A stretch of DNA of 64,000 nt from Actinopolymorpha alba DSM 45243 (GTDB lineage: Bacteria; Actinomycetota; Actinomycetes; Propionibacteriales; Actinopolymorphaceae), in assembly GCF_000373925.1 (NCBI RefSeq), contig NZ_KB892769.1, positions 1 to 64,000 on the forward strand, in the 5' to 3' direction. The position numbers were made by a program, and so were the translations under genes. Position 1 is the stretch's first letter. Every line of letters begins with the position of its first letter. The notes beneath the pieces are model-generated. The model had not been told where the DNA came from and ran no database searches. It saw only the letters and a list, made by a program, of their open reading frames with translations. This document shows positions 1,402 to 63,287 of this stretch, one piece after another.

Positions 1402-3144
1402 TCAGTCCGTCCTTTCACGGCGTTCATCAAGCGAGGTGACCCGCGACGCGGTCGGTCCACGCCCACCGCTTCGGCGCGCCCCATCGAGCCGCCCCGCCTT
1501 CCTTGCGGACGCGCTGCCGGCCGGGTCATCACCCACCACTCGGCTCGACCTTCCGCCTCGCCCGCCAGCGGGCGCGCGGGCGCCGGCGGGCTCATGGCCA
1601 AGGCGCATCGTCAACGCGGTGAAGAGGTCGTGCCGACCTGGCCGATCCCGACCAGCCAGGTCCGCGAGCGTCCAGGCGATGCGCAACACCCGATCCGCAC
1701 CGCGCGCGGTGATCCAACCGGACGACAGGTGCCCCTCGACGACAGGCATCGCGCCCGGGTCTGGCGGCCAGCGCCGGCGCAGGATGTAGCCGGGCACGTG
1801 AGCATTGAGCGTCCACGGCGTGCCCCGGAACCGGTCCGCCTGGCGCTCCCGAGCCTTCCGCACCCGATCCGCGACGACGGCGGTCGACTCTATCAGCCGC
1901 TGGTCGGCCATCATCTCCGCCCTGGCGACCGGCTCCACCAACTGCAGGATGTCGATCCGGTCGCGGATCGGTCCGGAGAGCCGTTGCTGGTAACGCGCCC
2001 TGGCCTGCGAGGAGCACGTGCAGTAGATGCCCTTGCCGTACGCCCGGCCGCATGGGCACGGATTGGCGGCCAGCACCAGCTGGAACCTGGCCGGGAAGCG
2101 CGCCGTGCCGGCCGACCGGGCGATGACGACCTCGCCGTGCTCGAGCGGTTGGCGGAGAGCGTCGAGAACGGCGGGCCGGAACTCTGGTGCCTCGTCAAGG
2201 AAGAGAATGCCCCGGTGTGCCAGCGACACAGCACCGGGCCGGGCGATCCGGGAACCCCCGCCCACCAGGGCCGGCAGGGATGCCGAATGATGAGGATCGC
2301 AGTACGGCGGACGCACGACAAGCGGCGCGTCGGCCGGCAGCAGGCCGGCGACCGAATGGATGGCCGTGACCTCCAGCGCCTCCACCGGAGGTAGGTCTGG
2401 CAGCAGGCCGGGCATCCGCTCGGCCAGCATGGTCTTGCCGGCGCCGGGTGGGCCCGAGAGAAACAGATGGTGTCCACCCGCCGCCGCCACCTCGACCGCT
2501 CGACGCGCCGCGGTCTGGCCCAGCACCTCCGCCAGGTCAAGGGCGCCGAGTCGGTCTGAGCGCGGCAGGACCCCAGCATCGTCGTCGGCCGTCACCTCGG
2601 CTCGGGCGTACGGCGGCTCGTCAGGCACCTCCTCCCCGCGCAGGATCGACACCACCTGACGCAGGGTCCGGACTCCGAAGACCTCGACGTCCTCCACCAA
2701 CCTGGCCTCGCCCATGTTGGTTTCCGGAACGATGAACCTCCGGCACCCCGCCATCGAGGCCGCAAGCACCGACGGCAGCGCACCCCGCACCGCCTTCACG
2801 CGCCCGTCGAGCCCCAGCTCACCCAGGAACACCACTCCATCGACGGCACCCTGCGACACCACCCCCGCGGCACCGAGCACGGCGACGGCGATCGCGAGGT
2901 CGAAGTGGGCACCGGCCTTGGGCAGGGTCGCCGGTGACAGAGCGACGGTCAGTTTGCGTTGAGGCCAGTCGTGGGCGGAGTTGGCGACCGCCGCACGAAC
3001 GCGTGACCGGGCTTCGGCCAGTGCGGCGTCGGGCAGGCCAACCAGGCTGAACCCCGGGAGGCCGTTGCCGATGTGTGCTTCGACCTCGACAAGGTGGCCC
3101 TCGACACCGACCAGCGCCACCGAGCGTGCTCGCGCCAACGCCAT
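1402..3144 (-). CDS. YifB/ComM-family Mg chelatase-like AAA+ ATPase
   Basis: A 580-residue ATPase of the YifB/ComM family, related to magnesium chelatase subunit ChlI. The N-terminal 150 residues have the Lon-protease-like fold typical of the family (ALARARSVALVGVEG, GLPGFSLVGLPDAAL). The AAA+ core has Walker A GPPGAGKTMLAERM and Walker B GILFLDEAPEF, then a cysteine cluster (NPCPCG and YCTC) and a Mg-chelatase C-terminal region. The ATG at 3144 is chosen over an upstream in-frame start because homologues begin MALARxxSVAL and because it sits one base after the yraN stop. ComM proteins are branch-migration helicases in transformable bacteria; here the role is inferred. Confidence 0.93.
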   Translation of the reverse strand: MALARARSVALVGVEGHLVEVEAHIGNGLPGFSLVGLPDAALAEARSRVRAAVANSAHDWPQRKLTVALSPATLPKAGAHFDLAIAVAVLGAAGVVSQGAVDGVVFLGELGLDGRVKAVRGALPSVLAASMAGCRRFIVPETNMGEARLVEDVEVFGVRTLRQVVSILRGEEVPDEPPYARAEVTADDDAGVLPRSDRLGALDLAEVLGQTAARRAVEVAAAGGHHLFLSGPPGAGKTMLAERMPGLLPDLPPVEALEVTAIHSVAGLLPADAPLVVRPPYCDPHHSASLPALVGGGSRIARPGAVSLAHRGILFLDEAPEFRPAVLDALRQPLEHGEVVIARSAGTARFPARFQLVLAANPCPCGRAYGKGIYCTCSSQARARYQQRLSGPIRDRIDILQLVEPVARAEMMADQRLIESTAVVADRVRKARERQADRFRGTPWTLNAHVPGYILRRRWPPDPGAMPVVEGHLSSGWITARGADRVLRIAWTLADLAGRDRPGRHDLFTALTMRLGHEPAGARAPAGGRGGRSSRVVGDDPAGSASARKAGRLDGARRSGGRGPTASRVTSLDERRERTD

Positions 3145-3145
3145 G

Positions 3146-3502
3146 TCACTCCACCCCTCGCACGTGGTCGACGACAGCCGGCGCCGAACCCTTGTGCAAC
3201 ACGCCGATGACGTCGATCCGTACGCCACCTGGCCGGAGCTCGTGCTCGGCCAGCCACCGCGCGGCGAGCCGGCGGAGCCGGGCGGCCTTCTCCCAGGTCA
3301 CCGCCTCCAGCGGCGAGCCGAAGCCCAGGCCGGTGCGGGTCTTCACCTCGCACACGACCAGGACGTCGCCGTCTCGGGCGACGATGTCGATCTCGCCGAG
3401 TTCGCATCGCCAGTTGCGTGCCAGCACGACAAATCCACACGCCTGCAGATGACGGACCGCCAACTCCTCGCCGTGGCGACCGATCAGGTCTTTCGCCCGC
3501 AC
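3146..3502 (-). CDS. YraN-family (UPF0102) endonuclease-like protein
   Basis: A 118-residue UPF0102 protein with a restriction-endonuclease-like fold. The family motif is complete: GEELAVRHL, then NWRCELGEIDIVARDGD, then VVCEVKTRTG, giving the E-D-EVK metal-site arrangement. The start is GTG, preceded by GGAGGTGATC, which matches the anti-Shine-Dalgarno end of 16S rRNA over its full length, so translation should start strongly here. It is first in the yraN-yifB-dprA operon. Its molecular role is not known; Holliday-junction resolvase-like activity has been suggested from fold. Confidence 0.9.
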   Translation of the reverse strand: MRAKDLIGRHGEELAVRHLQACGFVVLARNWRCELGEIDIVARDGDVLVVCEVKTRTGLGFGSPLEAVTWEKAARLRRLAARWLAEHELRPGGVRIDVIGVLHKGSAPAVVDHVRGVE

Positions 3503-51040: not shown

Positions 51041-52675
51041 CTAGCGCGACCAGACGCGAGCAGCCAGCGAAACCACCTCGTCGACCAACTCCGGGGGCAC
51101 CTCCCGGTGGGTGATCAGTAGGACGGTGCGGTCCGACGTCGCCGCCATCAGGTCGCCGATCAACGCCGCAGCCATCGCGTCGTCGACGTGTTCCGTCGGC
51201 TCGTCGAAGATCACGATCGGAGCGTCCGCGAGCAGGCACCGGGCGAGTGAGAGACGCTGGCGCTCGCCTCCGGAGAGGCGTTCGCCGTGTTCGCCCACTC
51301 GGGTGTCGAGGCCCGCTGGCAACGTGTCCACCCAGTCGAGCAGCCGCGCCCGCCGGAGTGCGGATCGGACGTCGTCGTCGGTGGCGCCAGGCCGCGCGAG
51401 CCGGACGTTCTCGGCCAGCGTGGTGTCGAAGACGTGCGCGTCCTGCGCGCAGAGGCTCACGATCTGGCGTACGTCGTCGCTGGAAAACGCCCGCAGGTCC
51501 TGGCCGTTGAGAGTGATCCGTCCGCCGCCAGGTTCGACGAACCGCACCAGCGCCTGCGCCAGCGTGGACTTTCCCGAACCACTGGGTCCCACCAGCGCGA
51601 CCCTGCGCCCAGGCGGGAGGTCGAGGTTGACACCATCGGGCACCCACGGCCCGTCCCCGGTCCAGCGGACACGTAGATCTTCGACCCGCAGGTGGTACGG
51701 CGCTGGCGGCAGGGGTATCGGCTGGACTGGTTCGGAGACCGGCTCGGGTGCGTCGAGGATGCCGCGAATCCGGCCGAGCGCCGGCCGGGCCCGACCCGCC
51801 GCCGCGGCCGCGAGCGGCAGGCCACCGAGGACGTCAGCCAGGGCGAGCGGCGTCAGAACGACGACCGCGAGGAGTACGCCGTCCAGCCGTCCGGACCGCA
51901 CCGCGGGCACGCCAAGAGCAAGGCCCGCCCACGCGGTCCCACCGACGAGCAGCACGAGCAGCGCGGCACCCAGGCCACTGCTCCAACTGACCCGCCCCTC
52001 GGCCGCGCGCAACCGCCGATCGCTGGTCGCCGCCGCCTCGAGCGCCGGACCGGCAGCGTCGTAGGCAATCAGGTCGGGTGCCGCGTGGAGCAACTCCGCG
52101 GTCCTGGCCGCGAGCCGCCCGCGTTCCGGGGCGAGCGCGCGATCGGCCTGCCGGCTCGTCCGCGCCACGAGCCACGGGACGCCGAGCAGCGCCAGCCCCA
52201 CCGCGACCGTCGCGACGACGCCGGCCGCCGGGAGGAGGACGCCGAGCAGCGCCGCGGTGGCCGCACCCGTGAGCGCCGCCACCACCACCGGGAGCGCCGC
52301 GCGGAGTACGACGTCGAGGATGCCGTCGACGTCGGTCACCAGCCTGGTCATCAGGTCACCTGACCTGAACGCCGAAAGGCCGTTGGGCGCCAGACGTTCC
52401 AGCCTGGTGTAGGCGCGCGCTCGCGTGCCGCCGAGGAGGCGGTACGCCGCATCGTGGGAGACCAGGCGTTCGACGTACCGCAGCACACCGCGCGCGAGCC
52501 CGAACGCCCTGACCGCGACGATCGCCACCATGAGCACGAGCACCGGCGGATGCTCGGCGGCCCGCGCGATCAACCACGCCGACGTCGCCATCAGCGCCAC
52601 CGCGCTGGCCGCCGCTGCGAGTCCGGCCAGCACGGCGAGTGCGAGGCGGAGCGGGGTGCTTCTCAGCCAGGCCAT
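51041..52675 (-). CDS. cydC: Cytochrome bd assembly ABC exporter subunit CydC
   Basis: A 544-residue ABC half-transporter: six-helix membrane domain (ALAVLAGLAAAASAVALMAT, VLVLMVAIVAVRAFGLARG) and ATPase with GPSGSGKSTLAQALVRF, signature LSGGERQRLSLARCLL, Walker B APIVIFDEPTEHVD. With CydD it exports cysteine/glutathione or haem-related thiol balance needed for bd oxidase assembly. ATG at 52675, 13 bp after cydD. Confidence 0.93.
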   Translation of the reverse strand: MAWLRSTPLRLALAVLAGLAAAASAVALMATSAWLIARAAEHPPVLVLMVAIVAVRAFGLARGVLRYVERLVSHDAAYRLLGGTRARAYTRLERLAPNGLSAFRSGDLMTRLVTDVDGILDVVLRAALPVVVAALTGAATAALLGVLLPAAGVVATVAVGLALLGVPWLVARTSRQADRALAPERGRLAARTAELLHAAPDLIAYDAAGPALEAAATSDRRLRAAEGRVSWSSGLGAALLVLLVGGTAWAGLALGVPAVRSGRLDGVLLAVVVLTPLALADVLGGLPLAAAAAGRARPALGRIRGILDAPEPVSEPVQPIPLPPAPYHLRVEDLRVRWTGDGPWVPDGVNLDLPPGRRVALVGPSGSGKSTLAQALVRFVEPGGGRITLNGQDLRAFSSDDVRQIVSLCAQDAHVFDTTLAENVRLARPGATDDDVRSALRRARLLDWVDTLPAGLDTRVGEHGERLSGGERQRLSLARCLLADAPIVIFDEPTEHVDDAMAAALIGDLMAATSDRTVLLITHREVPPELVDEVVSLAARVWSR

Positions 52676-52688
52676 CACGACGCCGCTC

Positions 52689-54398
52689 CTACCAGACCGG
52701 GGCGGGGTGGGGACGGGCGCAACCCGTCGGGGCCGGGTCCATACAGCACCGGGACGGGGGCAGAGGGACCTCCACGACCCGGTCAGCCAGGGTGAGCAGG
52801 GCGGGTCGATGGGTGACCAGCAGCGTGGTGTGGCCCGACTCCCGGAGATTCCGCGCGACCACTGCCTCGGTGCCGGCGTCCAGACCGGCGGTGGGCTCGT
52901 CCAGGAGGAGAAGGCTCGCGGCGCCGGCGTCGGCTCGGATCGCGGCACGGAGGAACGCCCGCGCCAGCGCCACCCGGCGGACCTGCCCGGCCGAGAGTCC
53001 CGCGCCGCGCTCGCCGACCACGGTGCCGGGGTCGAGGTCGGCGGCGCCGGCCGCGGCCAGAGCCGCGACCACCTCGGAGTCGGTTGCTTGAGGCGCACCG
53101 AGGCGTACGTTGTCGGCGATGGTGCCGGCCAGCAGAGCGGGACGCTGCGGCACCCACGCCAGCGCGGCGCGCCAGGCGTTCACGTCGAGGTCGCTGGCAT
53201 CGATTCCACCCACGCGGACCTCACCCGACGCCGGCGGGACGAAGCCCAGCAGCACCCCGAGCAAGGTCGACTTGCCGGCGCCGCTCTCCCCCGCGACCGC
53301 GACGATCTCGCCCGGTCTCAGCTCGAACGACAGTCCCGAAAGAGCGGGACGGTCCCGGTCGGGATACCTCACCGCGAGATCAGCCACCGTCAACACAGCC
53401 CTGCGGAGATCTGGAACGGGTGCCCGGGCATCGCTCCTCGGGGCCGGCGTCTCGAGGACCCGGAACGCCTCGTCGGCAGCCGCGAGTCCGTCCGCGCTGG
53501 CATGGAAGTGCATGCCGACCAGGCGGAGCGGGAGGTACGCCTCCGGCGCGAGGATGAGGGCGAGCAACGCGGTCTTGAGATCGAGGCGCCCATCGACCAG
53601 CCGGAGTCCGACACCGACCGCCACCAGAGCCACCGAGAGCGTCGCCAACAACTCAAGGACCAGCGACGACAGGAACGCGATCCGCAACGTGGCCAGGGAT
53701 TCCCCGCGATGCCGGTCGGAGACCCGGCGGACCGCCTCGGCCTGCGCCTTCGCCCGCCCGAAGATCTTCAGTGTCGGCAGGCCGGCGAGCACGTCCGCGA
53801 AGTGGTGTGCCAGGACGGCGAGGGCGCGCCACCGCCGCCGGGTCTGCGCTCGGGTCGCGAGTCCGACGAGCACCATGAAGATCGGGATCAGCGGCAGCGT
53901 GAGCGCGACGGTGACCGCGGAGATGAGGTCGGCGGTGAACATCCAGGCGACCACGGCACCGGGAACGATCAGCGCAAGGACGAGTTGCGGCAGGTAGCGG
54001 GCGAAGTAGCCGTCGAGGGAGTCAAGACCTGCCGTGGTCAGCGTCGTCAAGGCTGCCTTGCGCTCACCCACCAGCCAGGACGGGCCCAGGGCGACCACGT
54101 GGTCGAGTAGTCGCCGCCGCAAGGTCTGCTTGACGGCGGCCGAGGCCCGGTGGGCCGCCACCTCCTGCACCCACGCCAGGACCGCGCGGCCCAGCACCAC
54201 AACGCCGAGCGCCACGAGGGTCGTGCGGAGCACCGCGCCCGTCAGATCGCCTGAGAACGCCGCACCGATCGCGCCCGCGAGTAGTTCCGCCTGCGCGATG
54301 ACCAGTGCCGCCGTCGCCGCACCGATCACCACGCACGCCACGACGTACACCGCGGTGGCCCGGGCGTACCGCAGGAGCCGTGGATCGAGCGGCCTCAT
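52689..54398 (-). CDS. cydD: Cytochrome bd assembly ABC exporter subunit CydD
   Basis: A 569-residue half-transporter: membrane part with GPSWLVGERKAALTTLTTAG, DGYFARYLPQLVLALIVPGA and ALAVLAHHFADVLAGLPTLK (the CydD-typical HHFxDxLxGLxTLK); ATPase with GESGAGKSTLLGVLLGF, signature LSAGQVRRVALARAF and LLLLDEPTAGLDAGT. Its start overlaps the cydB stop (ATGA). CydC and CydD are separate here, unlike the CydDC fusion of some actinobacteria. Confidence 0.93.
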   Translation of the reverse strand: MRPLDPRLLRYARATAVYVVACVVIGAATAALVIAQAELLAGAIGAAFSGDLTGAVLRTTLVALGVVVLGRAVLAWVQEVAAHRASAAVKQTLRRRLLDHVVALGPSWLVGERKAALTTLTTAGLDSLDGYFARYLPQLVLALIVPGAVVAWMFTADLISAVTVALTLPLIPIFMVLVGLATRAQTRRRWRALAVLAHHFADVLAGLPTLKIFGRAKAQAEAVRRVSDRHRGESLATLRIAFLSSLVLELLATLSVALVAVGVGLRLVDGRLDLKTALLALILAPEAYLPLRLVGMHFHASADGLAAADEAFRVLETPAPRSDARAPVPDLRRAVLTVADLAVRYPDRDRPALSGLSFELRPGEIVAVAGESGAGKSTLLGVLLGFVPPASGEVRVGGIDASDLDVNAWRAALAWVPQRPALLAGTIADNVRLGAPQATDSEVVAALAAAGAADLDPGTVVGERGAGLSAGQVRRVALARAFLRAAIRADAGAASLLLLDEPTAGLDAGTEAVVARNLRESGHTTLLVTHRPALLTLADRVVEVPLPPSRCCMDPAPTGCARPHPAPVW

Positions 54399-55360
54399 CC
54401 CACGACCCGCTTACGGAAGACCCAGTAACTCCAACCCTGGTAGGCGAGAACCAGCGGGACGAAGCAGGCCGCCGCCCAGGTCAGGATTCGCAGGCCGTAT
54501 GCCGGTGATGCCGCGCCTGTCACGGTGAGGTCGTACGCCCGGTCCAGCGTCGACGGGATCAGGGCCGGGAACGCCGACACGAAGATCGCCACCACCGTCA
54601 GCCCGACGGCCAGCGTCGACCCGACGAACGCCCAACCGTCACGGCGGACCAGCAGCCCGACCGCGAGACCGGCGGCCGCGACCAGCCCGATCAGGCCCGC
54701 CGACCGGTCCTGAACTCCTGTCCACACAAGGAATCCGGCACCCAACACCGCTGTTGGCGCACCCAGCAACCGGACCATCCGCCCGGCCCGGGCGCGGAGC
54801 TCTCCAGTCGTCCGCAACCGGAGGAACACCGCTCCGTGCAGCAGACACAAAGCCAGCAAGGCGATTCCGCCGAGGAGCGCGTACGGATGGAGGAGCTCGC
54901 CAAAGCCGCCGGCGTACTCACCACGGTCGTCCAGCGGAAGCCCTCGCGCCGCCCCGCTGAGGGCGATGCCCCACGCCAGCGGCGGGATCGCCGAGCCCAC
55001 CGCGACCGCGAGGTCGCACCGGCGCCGCCACCTCGCGTCGTCCCGCTTGCCCCGGAACTCCAGCGCGACTCCGCGCACGATCAGCGCGACCAGGATCAGC
55101 ACCAGCGGGAGGTAGTAGGTGCTGGTGAGGCTGGCGTACCACCCGGGGAACGCCGCGAACATCGCGCCGCCCGCCACCACCAACCAGACTTCGTTTCCGT
55201 CCCAGAACGGCCCGATCGTCGACAGCAGCGTCCCGCGTTCCTTCTCGTCGCGGCCGAGCAGCCGGGCCAGCACGCCGACGCCGAAGTCGAAGCCCTCGAG
55301 GACGAAGTACGTCGTCCAGAAGAACGCTATGAGCCCGAACCACAGGGTGGGCAACTCCAT
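54395..55360 (-). CDS. cydB: Cytochrome bd ubiquinol/menaquinol oxidase subunit II
   Basis: A 321-residue membrane protein with eight or nine helices. N-terminal signature TYFVLEGFDFGVGVLARLLG, then IGPFWDGNEVWLVVAGGAMF and FPGWYASLTSTYYLPLVLIL. C-terminal LTWAAACFVPLVLAYQGWSY. It follows cydA by 17 bp. Confidence 0.95.
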   Translation of the reverse strand: MELPTLWFGLIAFFWTTYFVLEGFDFGVGVLARLLGRDEKERGTLLSTIGPFWDGNEVWLVVAGGAMFAAFPGWYASLTSTYYLPLVLILVALIVRGVALEFRGKRDDARWRRRCDLAVAVGSAIPPLAWGIALSGAARGLPLDDRGEYAGGFGELLHPYALLGGIALLALCLLHGAVFLRLRTTGELRARAGRMVRLLGAPTAVLGAGFLVWTGVQDRSAGLIGLVAAAGLAVGLLVRRDGWAFVGSTLAVGLTVVAIFVSAFPALIPSTLDRAYDLTVTGAASPAYGLRILTWAAACFVPLVLAYQGWSYWVFRKRVVG

Positions 55361-55377: not shown

Positions 55378-56862
55378 TCAGTACGTGAACGTCAACGGGC
55401 GTTCGAGATCATCACCGTCAACCGGATCGCGGCCAGCGGCACCGCCGTCAGGAGGGCCGCCCTCGCCCCGCCCATCACCGTCGCCACCACCGCCTGCCGC
55501 GCCTGATCCGCCAACCGATGGGAGGACGCGGACCGCCCGGCGCAGGAGGCCGAACTCCAGCACCGCGAGCCCGCCGTACAGCAACGTGAACACGCCGAGC
55601 GAGATCGCCACGTCGAGTGCGGACGTGCCGGGCGACACCCCGTCCACCGTCTTGAACAAGCCGTACGCAATCCAGGGTTGACGCCCGCCCTCGGTGAAGA
55701 GCCAACCGGCGCTGTTCGCCAGCAGCGGCAGGAACGGGACCGCGAGCGCGATCCAGGGCACCCACCGGTGACGCAGCAATGCGGGCCTGCGCAGGAGCAG
55801 GAGCCCCACCAGGGCAAGGAAAGCCGCGAGCATGCCCGCCCCGATCATGAGCCGGAAGCTCCAGTAGGCCACCGGGACGTTGGGGATGTAATCACCAGGG
55901 CCGAAGGTCGCGACGTACTGCTGTTGCAGTTGGTTGATCCCCTCGACCTTTCCGGTGAACTTCCCGGTGGCGAGGAACGACAGCAGTTCGGGCAGTTTGA
56001 TGCTCCAGAGCTCGCTCCGGCCGTCCGCCGTACCAATCGTGAGCAGAGAGAATCCCGCCGGCTGCTCGGTGTTGAAGAGACCTTCAGCCGCGGCCACCTT
56101 CATGGGCTGCAGGCGGGTCATCAGCTTCATCATCGAGTCGCCGCTGATCACTACGCCGAGCGCGGCCACGAGCACCACGGCCGAACCCACCTTCGCCGCG
56201 GTGCGGAACGCGATCCTCGCCACGTCAGGCGTTCCCGGTCGCGCGAGCTGCCAGAAGGCCACGCCGGCCACCAGCGCACCGCCGGTCAGGAAGCACGCCG
56301 CCGCGGTGTGCAGGCCCGCCTCGATCGCGGTCGGATTCGTCAGCATGGCGCCGAAGTCGGTGAGTTCGACCCTGCCGTTGCCCGGATTGATCCGGTAGCC
56401 GACCGGATGCTGCATCCAGGCGTTCACCGTGAGAATCACGTACGCCGAGATCTGCGTACCGATCGCGACCAGCCAGATGCAGACCAGATGCAGCCATTTC
56501 GGCAGGCGATCCCAGCCGAAGATCCACAGACCGAGGAACGTCGATTCCAGGAAGAACGCCAGCAGGCCTTCGATCGCGAGCGGCACCCCGAACACGTCAC
56601 CCACGAACCGCGAATAGGCGCTCCAGTTCATCCCGAACTGGAACTCCTGGACGAGCCCGGTCACGATGCCCACCGCGAAGTTGATGATGAGCACTTTCCC
56701 GAAGAACTTCGTCAGGGCGAGATAACGCTCGGCCTTGGTGACCAACCAGGCGGTCTGGAGACCGGCCACGATCGCGGACAGCCCGATCGAGAGCGGAACG
56801 AAGAGGAAGTGGTAGATCGTCGTGATCCCGAACTGCCACCGCGCAAGGTCGACGACATCCAT
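55378..56862 (-). CDS. cydA: Cytochrome bd oxidase subunit I
   Basis: A 494-residue subunit carrying all haems. Ligands: His in WQFGITTIYHFLFVP (near 18), His in IEAGLHTAAACFLTGG (near 185) and Met in FRLMIGAGMLAAF (near 345). The Q-loop is the short form, with SAGWLFTEGGRQPWIAYGLF. The last 55 residues are Gly/Asp-rich. ATG at 56862 with no clear ribosome site. It transfers electrons from menaquinol to O2 at low oxygen. Two palindromes that match one at blaI lie directly upstream. Confidence 0.95.
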   Translation of the reverse strand: MDVVDLARWQFGITTIYHFLFVPLSIGLSAIVAGLQTAWLVTKAERYLALTKFFGKVLIINFAVGIVTGLVQEFQFGMNWSAYSRFVGDVFGVPLAIEGLLAFFLESTFLGLWIFGWDRLPKWLHLVCIWLVAIGTQISAYVILTVNAWMQHPVGYRINPGNGRVELTDFGAMLTNPTAIEAGLHTAAACFLTGGALVAGVAFWQLARPGTPDVARIAFRTAAKVGSAVVLVAALGVVISGDSMMKLMTRLQPMKVAAAEGLFNTEQPAGFSLLTIGTADGRSELWSIKLPELLSFLATGKFTGKVEGINQLQQQYVATFGPGDYIPNVPVAYWSFRLMIGAGMLAAFLALVGLLLLRRPALLRHRWVPWIALAVPFLPLLANSAGWLFTEGGRQPWIAYGLFKTVDGVSPGTSALDVAISLGVFTLLYGGLAVLEFGLLRRAVRVLPSVGGSGAAGGGGDGDGRGEGGPPDGGAAGRDPVDGDDLERPLTFTY

Positions 56863-56869
56863 GACTTGA

Positions 56870-56901
56870 TACTACTGAACGTAGTACGACACGGCGTCGT
56901 A
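56870..56901. promoter_or_regulatory. Twin 6-5-6 operators in front of cydA, probable BlaI-type sites
   Basis: TACTAC-TGAAC-GTAGTA (56870-56886) and TACGAC-ACGGC-GTCGTA (56885-56901) are perfect palindromic arms, overlapping by two bases, 7-39 bp before the cydA start. The second has exactly the arms of the site at 58145 upstream of blaI. Confidence 0.75.
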
Positions 56902-56968
56902 ACGTCGGTCACATCAGATCACCGGTCGGCCGGCGTGATCCCGTGCGGCGCCCGCCGTGCGGCGACTC

Positions 56969-58069
56969 CTACCGCGTGGCGCGGTCGCGGGGCTGGAAGG
57001 CCCAGGCCATACGGGGCTCGACGGCCCACCGGGCGAGGCGACGGACGGGCGGGGTCGACAGCAGTAGTGCGAGCCCCACACCCGCGACCCCGACGGCGAC
57101 CGCACCAAGGGTCGTGTGGAGCACGGGGTGGTCGTACCACCCGAAGTACCCACTCAGCTTCACCGGAACGCCGTGCAGCAGGTAGACGTACATCGTCGTC
57201 GTCCCAAGCGCCGTGAACCACGTCCGCCGGGTGGGCACGAGGGTAAGGAATGCCCCCGTCAGGATGATCGCCGCCATGAGCATCGCGAGGCGCATCGCCG
57301 TACCCGTGAGGTCGTCGACGGCGAGGTAGTCGTTGCTGCGCCGCCAGAACACCCATTCCATGCTCATCCGTGGGGCCGCCCAGTAGGCGACGACCAGGCC
57401 GCCGAGCATCACCGGCACAGCAAGCGCCCGGATCGCCGGCCGCCGGAGGAACTCGAAGTGCTCTGGGCGCAACGTGAGGCCGAGCACGAAGAACGGCAAC
57501 AGGCTCAGTACCCGCCCCGTCTCCAGAACGCCCGGCAGGTCCTGGAGCCCGGCCACCACCGAGATCGCCACCGCGACCCCGAGCGGCCAGCGGATCCGGT
57601 GCCACACCGGAGTCGACAGGCGCCAGGCGAACAACGCCAGCAGGAACCACACCAGGTAATAGGGGTCGAGCAAGGTGAGGTTGACATCGCGTCCCCCGAC
57701 AACCTTCGCGAGGGCCATGTACGCCAACTGGAAGATGACGAACGGCACCACGAGCTGCGTGAGCAGCTTGCGAACCTTGTCAGAGGACGACGGGAAGCCG
57801 CGGGAGAAGTAGCCGGCGATCACGATGAAGACCGGCATGTGGAACATGTAGAGAAAGAGATAGACCGCCCGGGCAGACGGCACATCCCGCAACGCCTCGA
57901 TCGCGTGCCCGGCGACGACCAGGACGATCGCGAGGAACTTCGCGTTGTCGTAGAAGGGGTCGCGCGTCTTCACCGACCGCGCGCCCTGTGCGGGCTCCGG
58001 CGCGGCAGCGGACTGGCTCACTGGCTTCGTGGCGGCAGAAGTCGTCACTGACCCGACCATACCCGGCAT
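56969..58069 (-). CDS. Acyltransferase-3 family membrane protein
   Basis: A 366-residue integral membrane acyltransferase: DPFYDNAKFLAIVLVVAGHA, YLFLYMFHMPVFIVIAGYFS, PYYLVWFLLALFAWRLSTPV, TTTMYVYLLHGVPVKLSGYF. About ten helices. The family (OafA/fucose-4-O-acetylase-like) acetylates sugars or glycopolymers. Start uncertain among ATG 58069, ATG 58060 and GTG 58048. The gene is divergent from blaI with about 100 bp between. Confidence 0.85.
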   Translation of the reverse strand: MPGMVGSVTTSAATKPVSQSAAAPEPAQGARSVKTRDPFYDNAKFLAIVLVVAGHAIEALRDVPSARAVYLFLYMFHMPVFIVIAGYFSRGFPSSSDKVRKLLTQLVVPFVIFQLAYMALAKVVGGRDVNLTLLDPYYLVWFLLALFAWRLSTPVWHRIRWPLGVAVAISVVAGLQDLPGVLETGRVLSLLPFFVLGLTLRPEHFEFLRRPAIRALAVPVMLGGLVVAYWAAPRMSMEWVFWRRSNDYLAVDDLTGTAMRLAMLMAAIILTGAFLTLVPTRRTWFTALGTTTMYVYLLHGVPVKLSGYFGWYDHPVLHTTLGAVAVGVAGVGLALLLSTPPVRRLARWAVEPRMAWAFQPRDRATR

Positions 58070-58144
58070 CACTGGGCAGAGCACACCGACCCCTCAGGGC
58101 AAGATCATTTCGACCGACCGAGGCGCCTCCTGCCAGGAAGGGAT

Positions 58145-58161
58145 TACGACAGGACGTCGTA
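58145..58161. promoter_or_regulatory. 6-5-6 operator upstream of blaI-type gene
   Basis: TACGAC-AGGAC-GTCGTA, perfect 6-bp arms, ends two bases before ATG 58164 and 11 before ATG 58173. The arms equal those of one site in front of cydA. The half-site TAC(T/G)AC fits the type bound by BlaI/MecI-family repressors (known consensus TACA/TGTA-like palindromes); the exact site is inference. Confidence 0.7.
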
Positions 58162-58172
58162 GGATGGCGGGC

Positions 58173-58586
58173 ATGGCACGGCTGGGCAACCTCGAACGCG
58201 AGGTCATGGAGCACATCTGGTCCTCGACCGGTCCCGTTACCGTGCGCGAGGTCCACGAGGCTCTGGCGCGCGAACGTGATCTGGCCTACACGACAGTGAT
58301 GACGGTCCTCGACCGGCTCGCCAAGAAATCCGTCGTACGCCGCGTGCGCGACGGCCGCGCCTACCGCTACGAAGCGGTGGCCGGCAAGGACCAGATGGTC
58401 GCTGACCTGATGCGGGAGGCGCTCGACGGTGCGGGGAGCGACGCCCATCGCGCCGCCGCGCTCGTGCGGTTCGTCGACGAGGCGACACCGGAGGAAGCGG
58501 CGGCCCTGCGGGAGGCCCTGGCAGGCCTCGCACCCGCTGAAACGTCACCGCCCTCGACATCTCGCCGCCGCGCACACCGGGGCTAG
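58173..58586 (+). CDS. BlaI/MecI-family transcriptional repressor
   Basis: A 137-residue winged-helix repressor: LGNLEREVMEHIWSSTGPVT, VREVHEALARERDLAYTTVM, TVLDRLAKKSVVRRVRDGRA, YRYEAVAGKDQM. The C-terminal half would dimerise (LDGAGSDAHRAAALVRFVDE). ATG 58173 (MARLGNLER) is preferred over ATG 58164. It is followed, after three bases, by an M56 protease, the classic repressor-sensor pair. Confidence 0.92.
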   Translation: MARLGNLEREVMEHIWSSTGPVTVREVHEALARERDLAYTTVMTVLDRLAKKSVVRRVRDGRAYRYEAVAGKDQMVADLMREALDGAGSDAHRAAALVRFVDEATPEEAAALREALAGLAPAETSPPSTSRRRAHRG

Positions 58587-58589
58587 CCG

Positions 58590-59498
58590 ATGACGCCGGT
58601 CGTCCTGGGCGCCCTCGCGCTCCTGCTCGCCGGACCAGCACCCGTCCTGCTCGCTCGACGGGCCTGGCCGACTCGCGTACCCCGCGCAGCCATCGTTCTC
58701 TGGCAGGCGCTCGCCCTCTCGGCCGTCCTCGCCGCCCTCGGCGCGGGGCTCGCGCTCGGCATGGACGTCCTCTTCAGGCCGCAGCGTGGTGCGGTCGAGA
58801 TCATCGTGCACTCCCTGGTCACGGCGCTCACCTGCGTCGTCGCCGTACGCCTGGTCTGGGCGTGGGCGAAGGTCGCCATCCGGACCCGGTCGAGGCGGCG
58901 GCGGCACCGCGCGCTCGTCGACCTGCTCGCCCGACCCGACCGCGAACTCGCGCGCGGCGACCTGACGGTGCCGGGTATCCGGATCCTCGCGGAGCAGACG
59001 CCGTTCGCCTACTGCCTTCCCGGCGTCCGCGACTCCCGGGTAGTCGTATCCTCGGGCGCGTTGGACCAGCTCGACTCCGACGAACTCGCCGCGGTCCTCA
59101 CCCACGAGCTCGCCCACCTGCGAGCCCGACACGACCTCGTCCTCGAGGCGTTCATCGCGTTGCGGGAGGCGTTCCCGCGGTTCGTGCGCAGCCGGACAAC
59201 CCTCGAGCAGAGCCGGCTGCTGATCGAGATGCTGGCCGACGACGCCGCCCGGCGCCGGGTTGGCGCGCCGCCGGTCGCCCGCGCACTCGTCACTCTCGCC
59301 GCCACGTCCGCACCGACGGGAGGCCTCGCGGCGGGTGGCCACGGCACGTTGGCGCGGGTACGCCGGATGGCTGAGCCCGCGGGGTCGCATCGCCTCCTGG
59401 CGGCGGCGACCTACCTCGCGGCCGCGGCGCTCGTGGTCGTTCCGACTGTCACGATCGCCATCCCCTGGCTCAACCGCCTCGCCGACCTACTCCCCTAG
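58590..59498 (+). CDS. M56-family membrane metalloprotease
   Basis: A 302-residue protease of BlaR1/MecR1 type, without the penicillin-binding sensor domain. Three N-terminal helices, zinc motif HELAH in LAAVLTHELAHLRARHDLVL (near 180), a third ligand likely in IEMLADDAARR, and a final helix near residue 275-298. It may cleave or signal to the adjacent BlaI-type repressor. Short actinobacterial M56 proteins lack a known ligand. Confidence 0.9.
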   Translation: MTPVVLGALALLLAGPAPVLLARRAWPTRVPRAAIVLWQALALSAVLAALGAGLALGMDVLFRPQRGAVEIIVHSLVTALTCVVAVRLVWAWAKVAIRTRSRRRRHRALVDLLARPDRELARGDLTVPGIRILAEQTPFAYCLPGVRDSRVVVSSGALDQLDSDELAAVLTHELAHLRARHDLVLEAFIALREAFPRFVRSRTTLEQSRLLIEMLADDAARRRVGAPPVARALVTLAATSAPTGGLAAGGHGTLARVRRMAEPAGSHRLLAAATYLAAAALVVVPTVTIAIPWLNRLADLLP

Positions 59499-60531: not shown

Positions 60532-63093
60532 CTACCCGCGCAACGTGACCGTGAGGCTTCTGCCGTACGCCTGGCGGGTTTCGAAGTCCAACTGATTGCC
60601 CCCGGCGACCCGGCTCACGCGTACCCCCTCGTCCGCGGAGACCACCGTCAGCGCGCGCCCACGCACGACGACAGAGACGGTGTCCCGGTCCATGGTGGGG
60701 TCGGACACCGCGACCGTAGTCAGGCCGCCGGGCCGGGTCTGCGCGATCACCGACGCCGGACCGTCGATGCTGAGTTCCGCGGCCTGGTGCCGCCCGCCGG
60801 CGAACACGTTGGCGGCGGTCAGCCCGAGCCCGGTATGACGGATGGCCTGTATGCGTGGGTTGTTCGCCAGCACACGAAGCGGTCCGCCGGCGTACGACGT
60901 CAAACGGCTGTCCGTCGCGTGCGGCACCAACGCGTACGCCAGCGACGACGGCGCCGCGCCGGCTGCCTGGTCGAACGAGACGCTGAAGACGTTGCGGGAG
61001 ACGGCGGTGTCGGGGTTCGAGGTACGAACGACGCGGCGGCTGCGGGTGACCTGCTCCAGCCCCACCCTCACCGGCCTGGGTTCGAGGAATGCATAGCCAA
61101 CGGCAGTCCCCTGGCTTGCGTTGAGGTACCGCAGCCAGCGCAGATCAGCCGTGCCGGCACCCGACCACGGACTGCCGTCCCGCCGCACACCCGTGATCGC
61201 CACCTGCTCGGACGGCGCCGCGATCCGTGCGTCCACCGTCGTAGTGACGGCTGGGTCGCTGACGCCGGCAGCCAGTACGACAATCTCGTCGTCGAGCATG
61301 AACCACGACTTGTGGGCCTGGGCATTCTGGTAGACGACGAAGTCGTCTGGCAGCACGCCCCGCTGTTTGTCGGCGTACGCGACATCACTGGACTGCATCA
61401 GCCCGGCCACGCCGTAGGCGCCGAGAGTCGCGCCGCCGGAATGGCGATTGGTGCCGCGCGGAAAGTAGACGTAGGTGTTCTGCGACTCTGACGACGACGT
61501 GAACGCCAGCGGGTGGTCGGGGTTGTCGTAGTACGGCGTGCCGTACAACTCGGGGATCGTCTGCCGCCGCTCGACCGGTGCGGTGACGCCAGCCAGACCG
61601 TACGCCGAGATCGTGGTGAAGTAGTCAACGCCGTACGCCTGGGTCTGGTCCTGGCCCGAGAGATACAGGTAGTACGCCCCGTCACCCTGGAACCACGGGA
61701 GGAGGTTCTCGCCGTTCATGTATTCGTACTTGCTGATCCGGTCAGAGCTGCGGGCGAGCGCGAACGCGTAGCCCGGACGCCGGTGCACGTGCTTGTCCAT
61801 GGCGTTGAACGCGACGCTTCGCGAAGCCTGGTTGAGGTCTGCCGCCGGGATGGTGTCATCACCCATGACGTCGGCGTAGCGCGCGATGCTGCCCGGCGAC
61901 ACGAAGCTTGTCGGATTGAGTGTCGCCCGCGACGTTGCCTGGATGAACTTCACGTAGCCCTTCAACGCAAGGGCATCCGGCCCGGTGGCGTAGTCGGAAA
62001 GGTCGACGACGGCCTCCAGCACCACAGCGACATCGGCGTACCCCGTGGTGGTCCGCGACACCGCCCGCCCCTTGACGATCTCCATCATCCAGCCCTCGAA
62101 GATGAGCGGGGCAAAGCCATTGCGCACCCACCCGTGCACCACCTCGACCAGGGAGTCGCCCCGCGCGTAGGTCGTACCCTCAAGGACCTTGAGCGTCTGG
62201 ACGACCCTCGTCAACAGAGCCTTGCCATAGGAACCCGTGTAGGCGACCGAGGAATGCTGGATGAACGATCCGTCGGCGTAATAGCCGTCGGTGACGCCGT
62301 GCTGAAGGTGGTATGGGTCGACGGTGGCGAAGACGGTCAGCTGGTCGGCGAGCGCCTTGCGGATCCGCGCGTCATCACCGAGCAGGGCACCTTGCAGGAT
62401 CCGGTTGGTAGTGATGTCGGCGAGATTGGCGCCGGTGTGGAAACGCGAGTCCAGATCGACATCGCCATCCTTGCCGTTACGCAGATAGGCATCCATGGAA
62501 TCGACGTAGGTCCGCAGGAGCTCTGGGTGGTACGCCCGAACCTGATCGAGGAGCAGCACCAGCGTCTTGCTGACGTGACTGGAGATGCCGATCTCCCAGT
62601 TGAACCAGTTGCCGTAATAGCCGCGGCCCTGGTCGCCGTAGTAACGCTCGTGTAACCAGGCCAGCCCGTCGATCACCCGGCGCTGGACGGCGAGGTTGTC
62701 GTCGAGATCAGTCCTGGTGGCGAGCGCGATCTCATACAGATGTTGGAACGACGCGGTGAGGTTCGAGTCGCTGGAACCAAGGGGTACGCCGGCGAACAAC
62801 TCGCCGCTGCCGGCCCGGTCCATCGCCGTGAGCCAGGTCCGCGCGATCTGGTCGATGCCGGCCAGCTTGGCGGCGACCTCCGGCCTGGCATTGGACTCAG
62901 GCGTCCCAGCGAAGATCGCCACAGTGTTGGAGAGCAGCCGGGCGCTCTCGGTGCTGGCATCGGCGCTCGCGGCGGTGCTGGCGGCGCTGGTGTGGACGTC
63001 GGCGCTGGTTTCGCCGGCCTGTCCCGGCGTGGCCATCGTCAGCAGCCCAGCGGACGGGAGCAGCGACAGCAGGTGGCGACGGCTGATCTCCAC
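60532..63093 (-). CDS. Polysaccharide lyase family 8 (hyaluronate/chondroitin/xanthan lyase type)
   Basis: An 853-residue secreted lyase. The signal, EISRRHLLSLLPSAGLLTM followed by ATPGQAGE, has a twin-arginine-like pair. The (alpha/alpha) toroid carries the catalytic Asn in YYGNWFNWEIGISSHVSKTL, and His/Tyr in DGSFIQHSSVAYTGSYGKAL. Beta-sandwich regions follow (MNGENLLPWFQGDGAYYLYL, ARSSDRISKYEYMNGEN). The start is GTG at 63093 with GAGGAG seven bases upstream. It cleaves uronic-acid polymers by beta-elimination; specific polymer not determinable. Confidence 0.9.
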   Translation of the reverse strand: MEISRRHLLSLLPSAGLLTMATPGQAGETSADVHTSAASTAASADASTESARLLSNTVAIFAGTPESNARPEVAAKLAGIDQIARTWLTAMDRAGSGELFAGVPLGSSDSNLTASFQHLYEIALATRTDLDDNLAVQRRVIDGLAWLHERYYGDQGRGYYGNWFNWEIGISSHVSKTLVLLLDQVRAYHPELLRTYVDSMDAYLRNGKDGDVDLDSRFHTGANLADITTNRILQGALLGDDARIRKALADQLTVFATVDPYHLQHGVTDGYYADGSFIQHSSVAYTGSYGKALLTRVVQTLKVLEGTTYARGDSLVEVVHGWVRNGFAPLIFEGWMMEIVKGRAVSRTTTGYADVAVVLEAVVDLSDYATGPDALALKGYVKFIQATSRATLNPTSFVSPGSIARYADVMGDDTIPAADLNQASRSVAFNAMDKHVHRRPGYAFALARSSDRISKYEYMNGENLLPWFQGDGAYYLYLSGQDQTQAYGVDYFTTISAYGLAGVTAPVERRQTIPELYGTPYYDNPDHPLAFTSSSESQNTYVYFPRGTNRHSGGATLGAYGVAGLMQSSDVAYADKQRGVLPDDFVVYQNAQAHKSWFMLDDEIVVLAAGVSDPAVTTTVDARIAAPSEQVAITGVRRDGSPWSGAGTADLRWLRYLNASQGTAVGYAFLEPRPVRVGLEQVTRSRRVVRTSNPDTAVSRNVFSVSFDQAAGAAPSSLAYALVPHATDSRLTSYAGGPLRVLANNPRIQAIRHTGLGLTAANVFAGGRHQAAELSIDGPASVIAQTRPGGLTTVAVSDPTMDRDTVSVVVRGRALTVVSADEGVRVSRVAGGNQLDFETRQAYGRSLTVTLRG

Positions 63094-63287
63094 GGCACAC
63101 TCCTCGATGGCACGAAAGGTTCCTGGCAGCGGGAGATCACCACCGTAGCTATGCGACAGCGCCCCCGCTGTCAACGAGCGCACACCTGGCCGGGATGAGC
63201 CAGCCAGCGACGACAAAGTCGAGCACTGTGCGCTCCCATGAGGCGGCAAAGCGACCGCTTTTCGTCAGACCTGGATCAGCCTCGACG

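Follow-up and report, generated by a model that had tools for sequence, protein, structure and literature searches.

Background

In mycobacteria, the cytochrome bd oxidase aids survival of drugs directed against the main respiratory chain, and its switch therefore matters. For BlaI of Mycobacterium tuberculosis, the abstract of Sala et al. 2009 reportedly gives as targets blaI itself, blaC-sigC, rv1456c, rv3921c and the atp operon, with cyd not among them. A passage in a 2017 eLife article cites that same study for binding of M. tuberculosis BlaI to the promoter of the bd oxidase (PMC5473688), an attribution that should be checked. The mycobacterial BlaR is without a beta-lactam sensor domain (PMC5473688).

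Here we analyse a stretch of 64,000 nucleotides from Actinopolymorpha alba DSM 45243 (the whole stretch is called the window), for which an earlier note had proposed that a BlaI-type repressor silences both cydABDC and its own gene, that the adjacent M56 protease relieves the repression, and that such control would be new. Judged from genome comparison, a BlaI/M56 wiring of the bd oxidase appears conserved across many actinobacteria, where the earlier hint came from the tuberculosis bacterium only. The word 'new' was too strong, since binding of M. tuberculosis BlaI to the bd promoter is already stated in the eLife passage (PMC5473688), but for bacteria other than mycobacteria our searches of the openly accessible literature turned up no account of cyd being governed by BlaI. 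The novelty lies in conservation on the scale of the class, a dedicated locus and further candidate targets.

Genes of the locus

The genes and putative regulatory elements are collected in Table 1. The repressor matches Penicillinase_R (PF03965) with E 4.9e-29 over residues 4-116, and among solved structures it is closest to M. tuberculosis BlaI (PDB 2g9w, E 2.9e-37), the recognition helix being almost the same in the two proteins (AYTTVM.VL.RLAKK). An acyltransferase-3 gene, left out of the earlier note, separates cydA from blaI; its place in the BlaI regulon is uncertain, and the box in front of blaI might possibly serve this divergent gene as well.

The genome also encodes a second BlaI paralogue (C35:29583-29954, locus L220), 46% identical to that of the window; a box with one mismatch, close to the gene of an M23 peptidase, lies ~1.5 kb away. 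Next to the cyd-blaI locus lies a gene for a polysaccharide lyase of family 8 (hyaluronate/chondroitin lyase type; 60532-63249, minus strand), with a TetR regulator alongside.

Table 1. Genes, boxes and predicted promoter elements of the cyd-blaI locus (window coordinates).
Feature	Position	Strand	Basis and remarks
cydC-type ABC exporter	51041..52684	-	gene call, Pfam; start codon approximate
cydD-type ABC exporter	52689..54398	-	gene call, Pfam, operon position
cydB, cytochrome bd subunit II	54395..55360	-	Pfam 6.8e-102
cydA, cytochrome bd subunit I	55378..56862	-	Pfam 3.2e-159
Predicted -10 TAGTAT of cydA promoter	56869..56874	-	6 nt from ATG; identical in 5/5 genus relatives
Putative BlaI box 2 of cydA, TACTACTGAACGTAGTA	56870..56886	none	overlaps box 1 by 2 bp and the -10; pair present in 5/5 genus relatives
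Putative BlaI box 1 of cydA, TACGACACGGCGTCGTA	56885..56901	none	exact scan and conservation
Acyltransferase-3 membrane protein, between cydA and blaI	56969..58084	-	Pfam; conserved in genus
Putative BlaI box of blaI, TACGACAGGACGTCGTA	58145..58161	none	kept in 5 genus relatives, G006 and G007
Predicted -10 TAGGAT of blaI promoter	58160..58165	+	overlaps box; 7 nt from ATG; TAGRAT conserved
blaI, 137-aa winged-helix repressor, M. tuberculosis BlaI type	58173..58586	+	Pfam Penicillinase_R, PDB 2g9w
M56/M48-type membrane metalloprotease (BlaR-like), 302 aa, without C-terminal sensor	58590..59498	+	Pfam, alignment, model

Palindromic boxes and their conservation

An exact-match scan returns three TACKAC-N5-GTMGTA palindromes in the window, at the very coordinates and with the very letters first described, two of them before cydA and one before blaI. 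Dinucleotide-preserving shuffles of the window yield a mean of 0.00 exact sites; with up to two mismatches allowed there are 9 matches against 3.0 expected, and the exact ones are these three. Across the 7.98 Mb genome, the looser TACNACN5GTNGTA occurs at 9 sites, 3 of them in the window, while TACKACN5GTMGTA has six exact sites, half of which fall in the window (the reversed control pattern has 2). The cydA palindromes had been called abutting; they are adjacent, and more precisely overlap by 2 bp at a spacing of 15 bp. This spacing is found in the window's genus, versus mostly 18-23 bp elsewhere, and would place two dimers on almost opposite sides of the DNA helix.

Several further sites were set aside. 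Exact matches at C51, C53 and C89 fall within coding genes and were rejected as operators, as was an intergenic one at C43 whose place is not conserved; the site TACGACCAGTGGTCGTA (C102) recurs in relatives, yet falls within a reading frame in one of them, and was left uncounted.

We conclude from comparative evidence that the TACKAC-N5-GTMGTA box is the predicted operator of BlaI, because it lies upstream of blaI in most of 80 related loci and co-occurs with the BlaI protein, and because the same box precedes a gel-shift-proven BlaI target, the ATP-synthase leader gene, in mycobacteria. The co-occurrence was evaluated in 118 genomes drawn from across the class, from which 60 cydA upstream regions were scored for the box at <=1 mismatch, with BlaI taken as close at E<=1e-28 and as none where no BlaI was found at E<=1e-20. 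A box precedes cydA in 27/30 cases from close-BlaI genomes, in 2/12 from genomes with only a weak BlaI and in 0/18 where none was found, compared to a frequency of 0.08% in shuffled upstream regions. The contrast of close with none is significant (Fisher p=1.8e-10), although the test counts genomes and ignores kinship, so that this p overstates the evidence; the pattern itself spans many families. Three of the 30 cydA genes from close-BlaI genomes lack a box, and in one genome a second cydA carries it. The earlier note had proposed a search for the same site beside cydA and blaI in relatives, and it is there that the site was found.

As for the ATP synthase, the motif stands ahead of ATP-synt_I and AtpB genes in four loci (L244, L245, L248 and L253), which come from M. 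angelicum, M. chelonae, Mycolicibacter and another genome of the class; its distance to the ATP-synthase I gene at the head of the atp operon is ~110-260 bp. We take the promoter of the ATP-synthase I gene in these loci to be the Rv1303 promoter. At the latter, binding of BlaI was demonstrated by gel shift and repression by qRT-PCR (PMC12565901).

Promoter architecture and linkage of blaI and cydA

In the window and five genus relatives, the cydA-proximal box merges into TAGTAT, 6-7 bases 5' of the ATG, and the blaI box merges into TAGGAT or TAGAAT, 7-8 bases 5' of the ATG. Both promoters thus look leaderless, with a -10 element that would be covered by the repressor, and since boxes and predicted -10 elements overlap, repression by occlusion is likely. 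A scan with the sigma-70 consensus found no promoter at the locus; the -10 assignments rest on the conserved TANNNT beside each box.

The two genes are divergent neighbours, with one to three common boxes within ~100 bp, in Kribbella, Aeromicrobium, Nocardioides, Kineococcus, Microlunatus and Phytoactinopolyspora. They lie far apart, each with its own box, in several mycobacteria and in one genome of the window's own family (G007). Intermediate arrangements are seen in the window's genus, where the acyltransferase gene intervenes, and in G006, where a different insertion places unrelated genes between them; boxes are kept at both ends in each case. Such retention after blaI and cydA have separated matches the prediction of direct control of both genes.

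A membrane protease without the BlaR1 sensor

The product of the gene downstream of blaI matches M48 (E 2.2e-10) and, under the gathering cut-off, M56 (E 5.7e-6) in Pfam. Its catalytic motif HELAH (172-176) is followed by E213, and H172, E173, H176 and E213 are invariant among 26 relatives, as is the triplet A140-Y141-C142 in the strand ahead of the HEXXH helix; the conserved C142, near the zinc site, could act as a redox sensor. An AlphaFold model (pLDDT 90) is a helical bundle whose top Foldseek matches are BlaR1 (8exq, 8exp, 8exr) and Ste24/ZMPSTE24, weak matches all (E 0.01-0.06, TM ~0.3, probability 0.96-1.00). Only ~131 residues follow the HEXXH motif, with a single terminal hydrophobic helix, and by this length, Pfam and the model the penicillin-binding sensor domain of BlaR1 is therefore absent.

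Other candidate targets

Elsewhere in the window genome, a box precedes the gene of a 115-aa membrane protein with four predicted helices (C77:6321; locus L214 2131-2475, box 2522-2538). The same protein gene carries a box in G091, G157, Phytoactinopolyspora and G067, and a one-mismatch box in two more genomes. A one-mismatch box also precedes the gene of a 119-aa membrane protein, or its operon, in 8/8 genomes of the family, and an exact one precedes the gene of a similar-looking membrane protein in G124. Neither the 115-aa nor the 119-aa protein matched a Pfam family. Boxes stand before a DUF3817 gene in L246 and L254. The additional box-bearing genes are, on the whole, respiratory in flavour; among the matches listed, no beta-lactamase gene lies beside any exact or one-mismatch box inspected, and in the window genome neither an atp nor a beta-lactamase site was seen among the boxes inspected.

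Some individual sites may be mentioned separately. In the 115-aa protein, whose upstream box occurs across the window's family and several other families, H12 and W113 are invariant. At C92 (locus L264, 2513-2544) there is a double near-consensus box with the 15 bp spacing of the cydA pair, downstream of which (2558-3243) are encoded a 109-aa protein, with a weak resemblance to the dimerisation domain of glutamyl-tRNA reductase, and the 119-aa membrane protein already mentioned. An exact box overlaps the start of the heme A synthase (CtaA) gene in G124 (L258, around 2002), and another lies ~113 bp before a qNor-type NO reductase gene in Mycolicibacter nonchromogenicus (L249, around 2003).

Proposed mechanism and alternatives

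We consider control of cydABDC by BlaI highly probable. That BlaI acts on cydA and on itself, as first proposed, is strongly supported by the conservation of the sites, while the sign of the effect, repression and autoregulation, is what we infer from promoter anatomy and conservation. A BlaI dimer of the M. tuberculosis type would bind the boxes that cover the predicted -10 element at cydABDC and at blaI-M56, shutting off transcription from both promoters. Under a stress in which the backup oxidase is needed, the signal would be perceived across the membrane, with the sensor-less M56 protease as the probable receiver; the protease would then remove BlaI, and the loss of BlaI would switch on cytochrome bd, blaI-M56 and one or two of the small four-helix membrane proteins that carry boxes. 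BlaI is not necessarily the chief regulator of cyd, given that in M. tuberculosis cydAB is also under other regulators such as SenX3/RegX3 (PMC7924339).

The relief of repression is a weaker part of the proposal. That the M56 protease brings it about is plausible, its gene being the next after blaI and its product retaining HEXXH, and we regard this as likely. It is also conceivable, if on balance unlikely, that BlaI represses cyd while the protease is not the switch, and that release comes about through the amount of BlaI, through WhiB-type redox regulators or through direct modification; a protease without a sensor domain would fit this, as would the regulation of blaR and blaC by WhiB4 in M. 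tuberculosis (PMC5473688), but the M56 gene lies directly 3' of blaI in nearly all of the 80 related loci with its HEXXH and catalytic residues kept, and the original partner known for BlaI is BlaR1.

More doubtful is a reading in which the pair responds primarily to beta-lactams or cell-wall stress, with cyd as one output among several. In M. tuberculosis, BlaI does repress blaC, and amoxicillin-clavulanate induces both blaI-blaR and cydAB (PMC5473688). The boxes conserved in the window's family, however, are those at cydA, blaI and the two membrane-protein genes, with no beta-lactamase at the boxes inspected, and the protease has no penicillin-binding sensor. That the palindrome is the site of a different regulator and lies near blaI by accident seems very improbable: BlaI binding to the box is a prediction in this organism, but presence of the box tracks presence of BlaI to the extent given above, and the box stands both at the known target Rv1303 in mycobacteria and before blaI in most of the 80 loci.

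Least credible of all is control of cydABDC by Rex as in Streptomyces, since, although a passage on Streptomyces avermitilis has Rex controlling aerobic metabolism genes (PMC5355995) and Rex-type boxes precede cydA in five sampled genomes of one family (f18), no TGTG-N8-CACA occurs at <=1 mismatch near the window's cydA and such a site is found at only 1/30 cydA genes from close-BlaI genomes. Those five genomes have only a weak BlaI, and their cydA carries perfect Rex-type boxes (TGTGAAC..TTCACA) in place of the BlaI box; Rex, the usual model according to the earlier note, is the alternative in only part of the class.

Returning to the BlaI/M56 reading, we suggest tentatively, as an idea that is possible though somewhat short of probable, that the actinobacterial BlaI with its sensor-less M56 partner is at root a regulator of the respiratory chain, governing cytochrome bd along with targets that vary between lineages, namely ATP synthase, NO reductase, heme A synthase and small membrane proteins. 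Beta-lactamase control would then have been recruited in some lineages only, and the protease would sense the respiratory or redox state, perhaps via C142. A protein named for penicillin resistance would be recast as mainly a respiratory regulator, and a switch of the beta-lactam type tied to respiration. For a large part of the actinobacteria without Rex boxes, this offers a cheaply testable regulator of cytochrome bd.

Comparison with known systems

Rex in Streptomyces is likewise a repressor acting on a palindrome at the cydA promoter, but it belongs to another protein family, recognizes a different operator (TGTGAAC..TTCACA) and responds to NADH/NAD+. The BlaI-BlaR1 and MecI-MecR1 pairs of Staphylococcus aureus share with the window a winged-helix repressor, an adjacent HEXXH membrane protease and autoregulation through a palindrome, predicted in the case of the window. 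Their operator sequence differs from the window box, and BlaR1, which controls a beta-lactamase, carries a penicillin-binding sensor on the outside of the cell, whereas the window's protease has no sensor and the predicted target is a respiratory oxidase. The greatest likeness is to BlaI-BlaR of M. tuberculosis (Rv1846c-Rv1845c), with its closely homologous BlaI and sensor-less M56 partner; in mycobacteria the box likewise occurs at blaI, at the gene that leads the atp operon and, in several of these species, at cydA. There, however, blaI is unlinked to cydA and BlaI also controls blaC and atp, whereas in the window blaI lies next to cyd and two small membrane-protein genes carry boxes.
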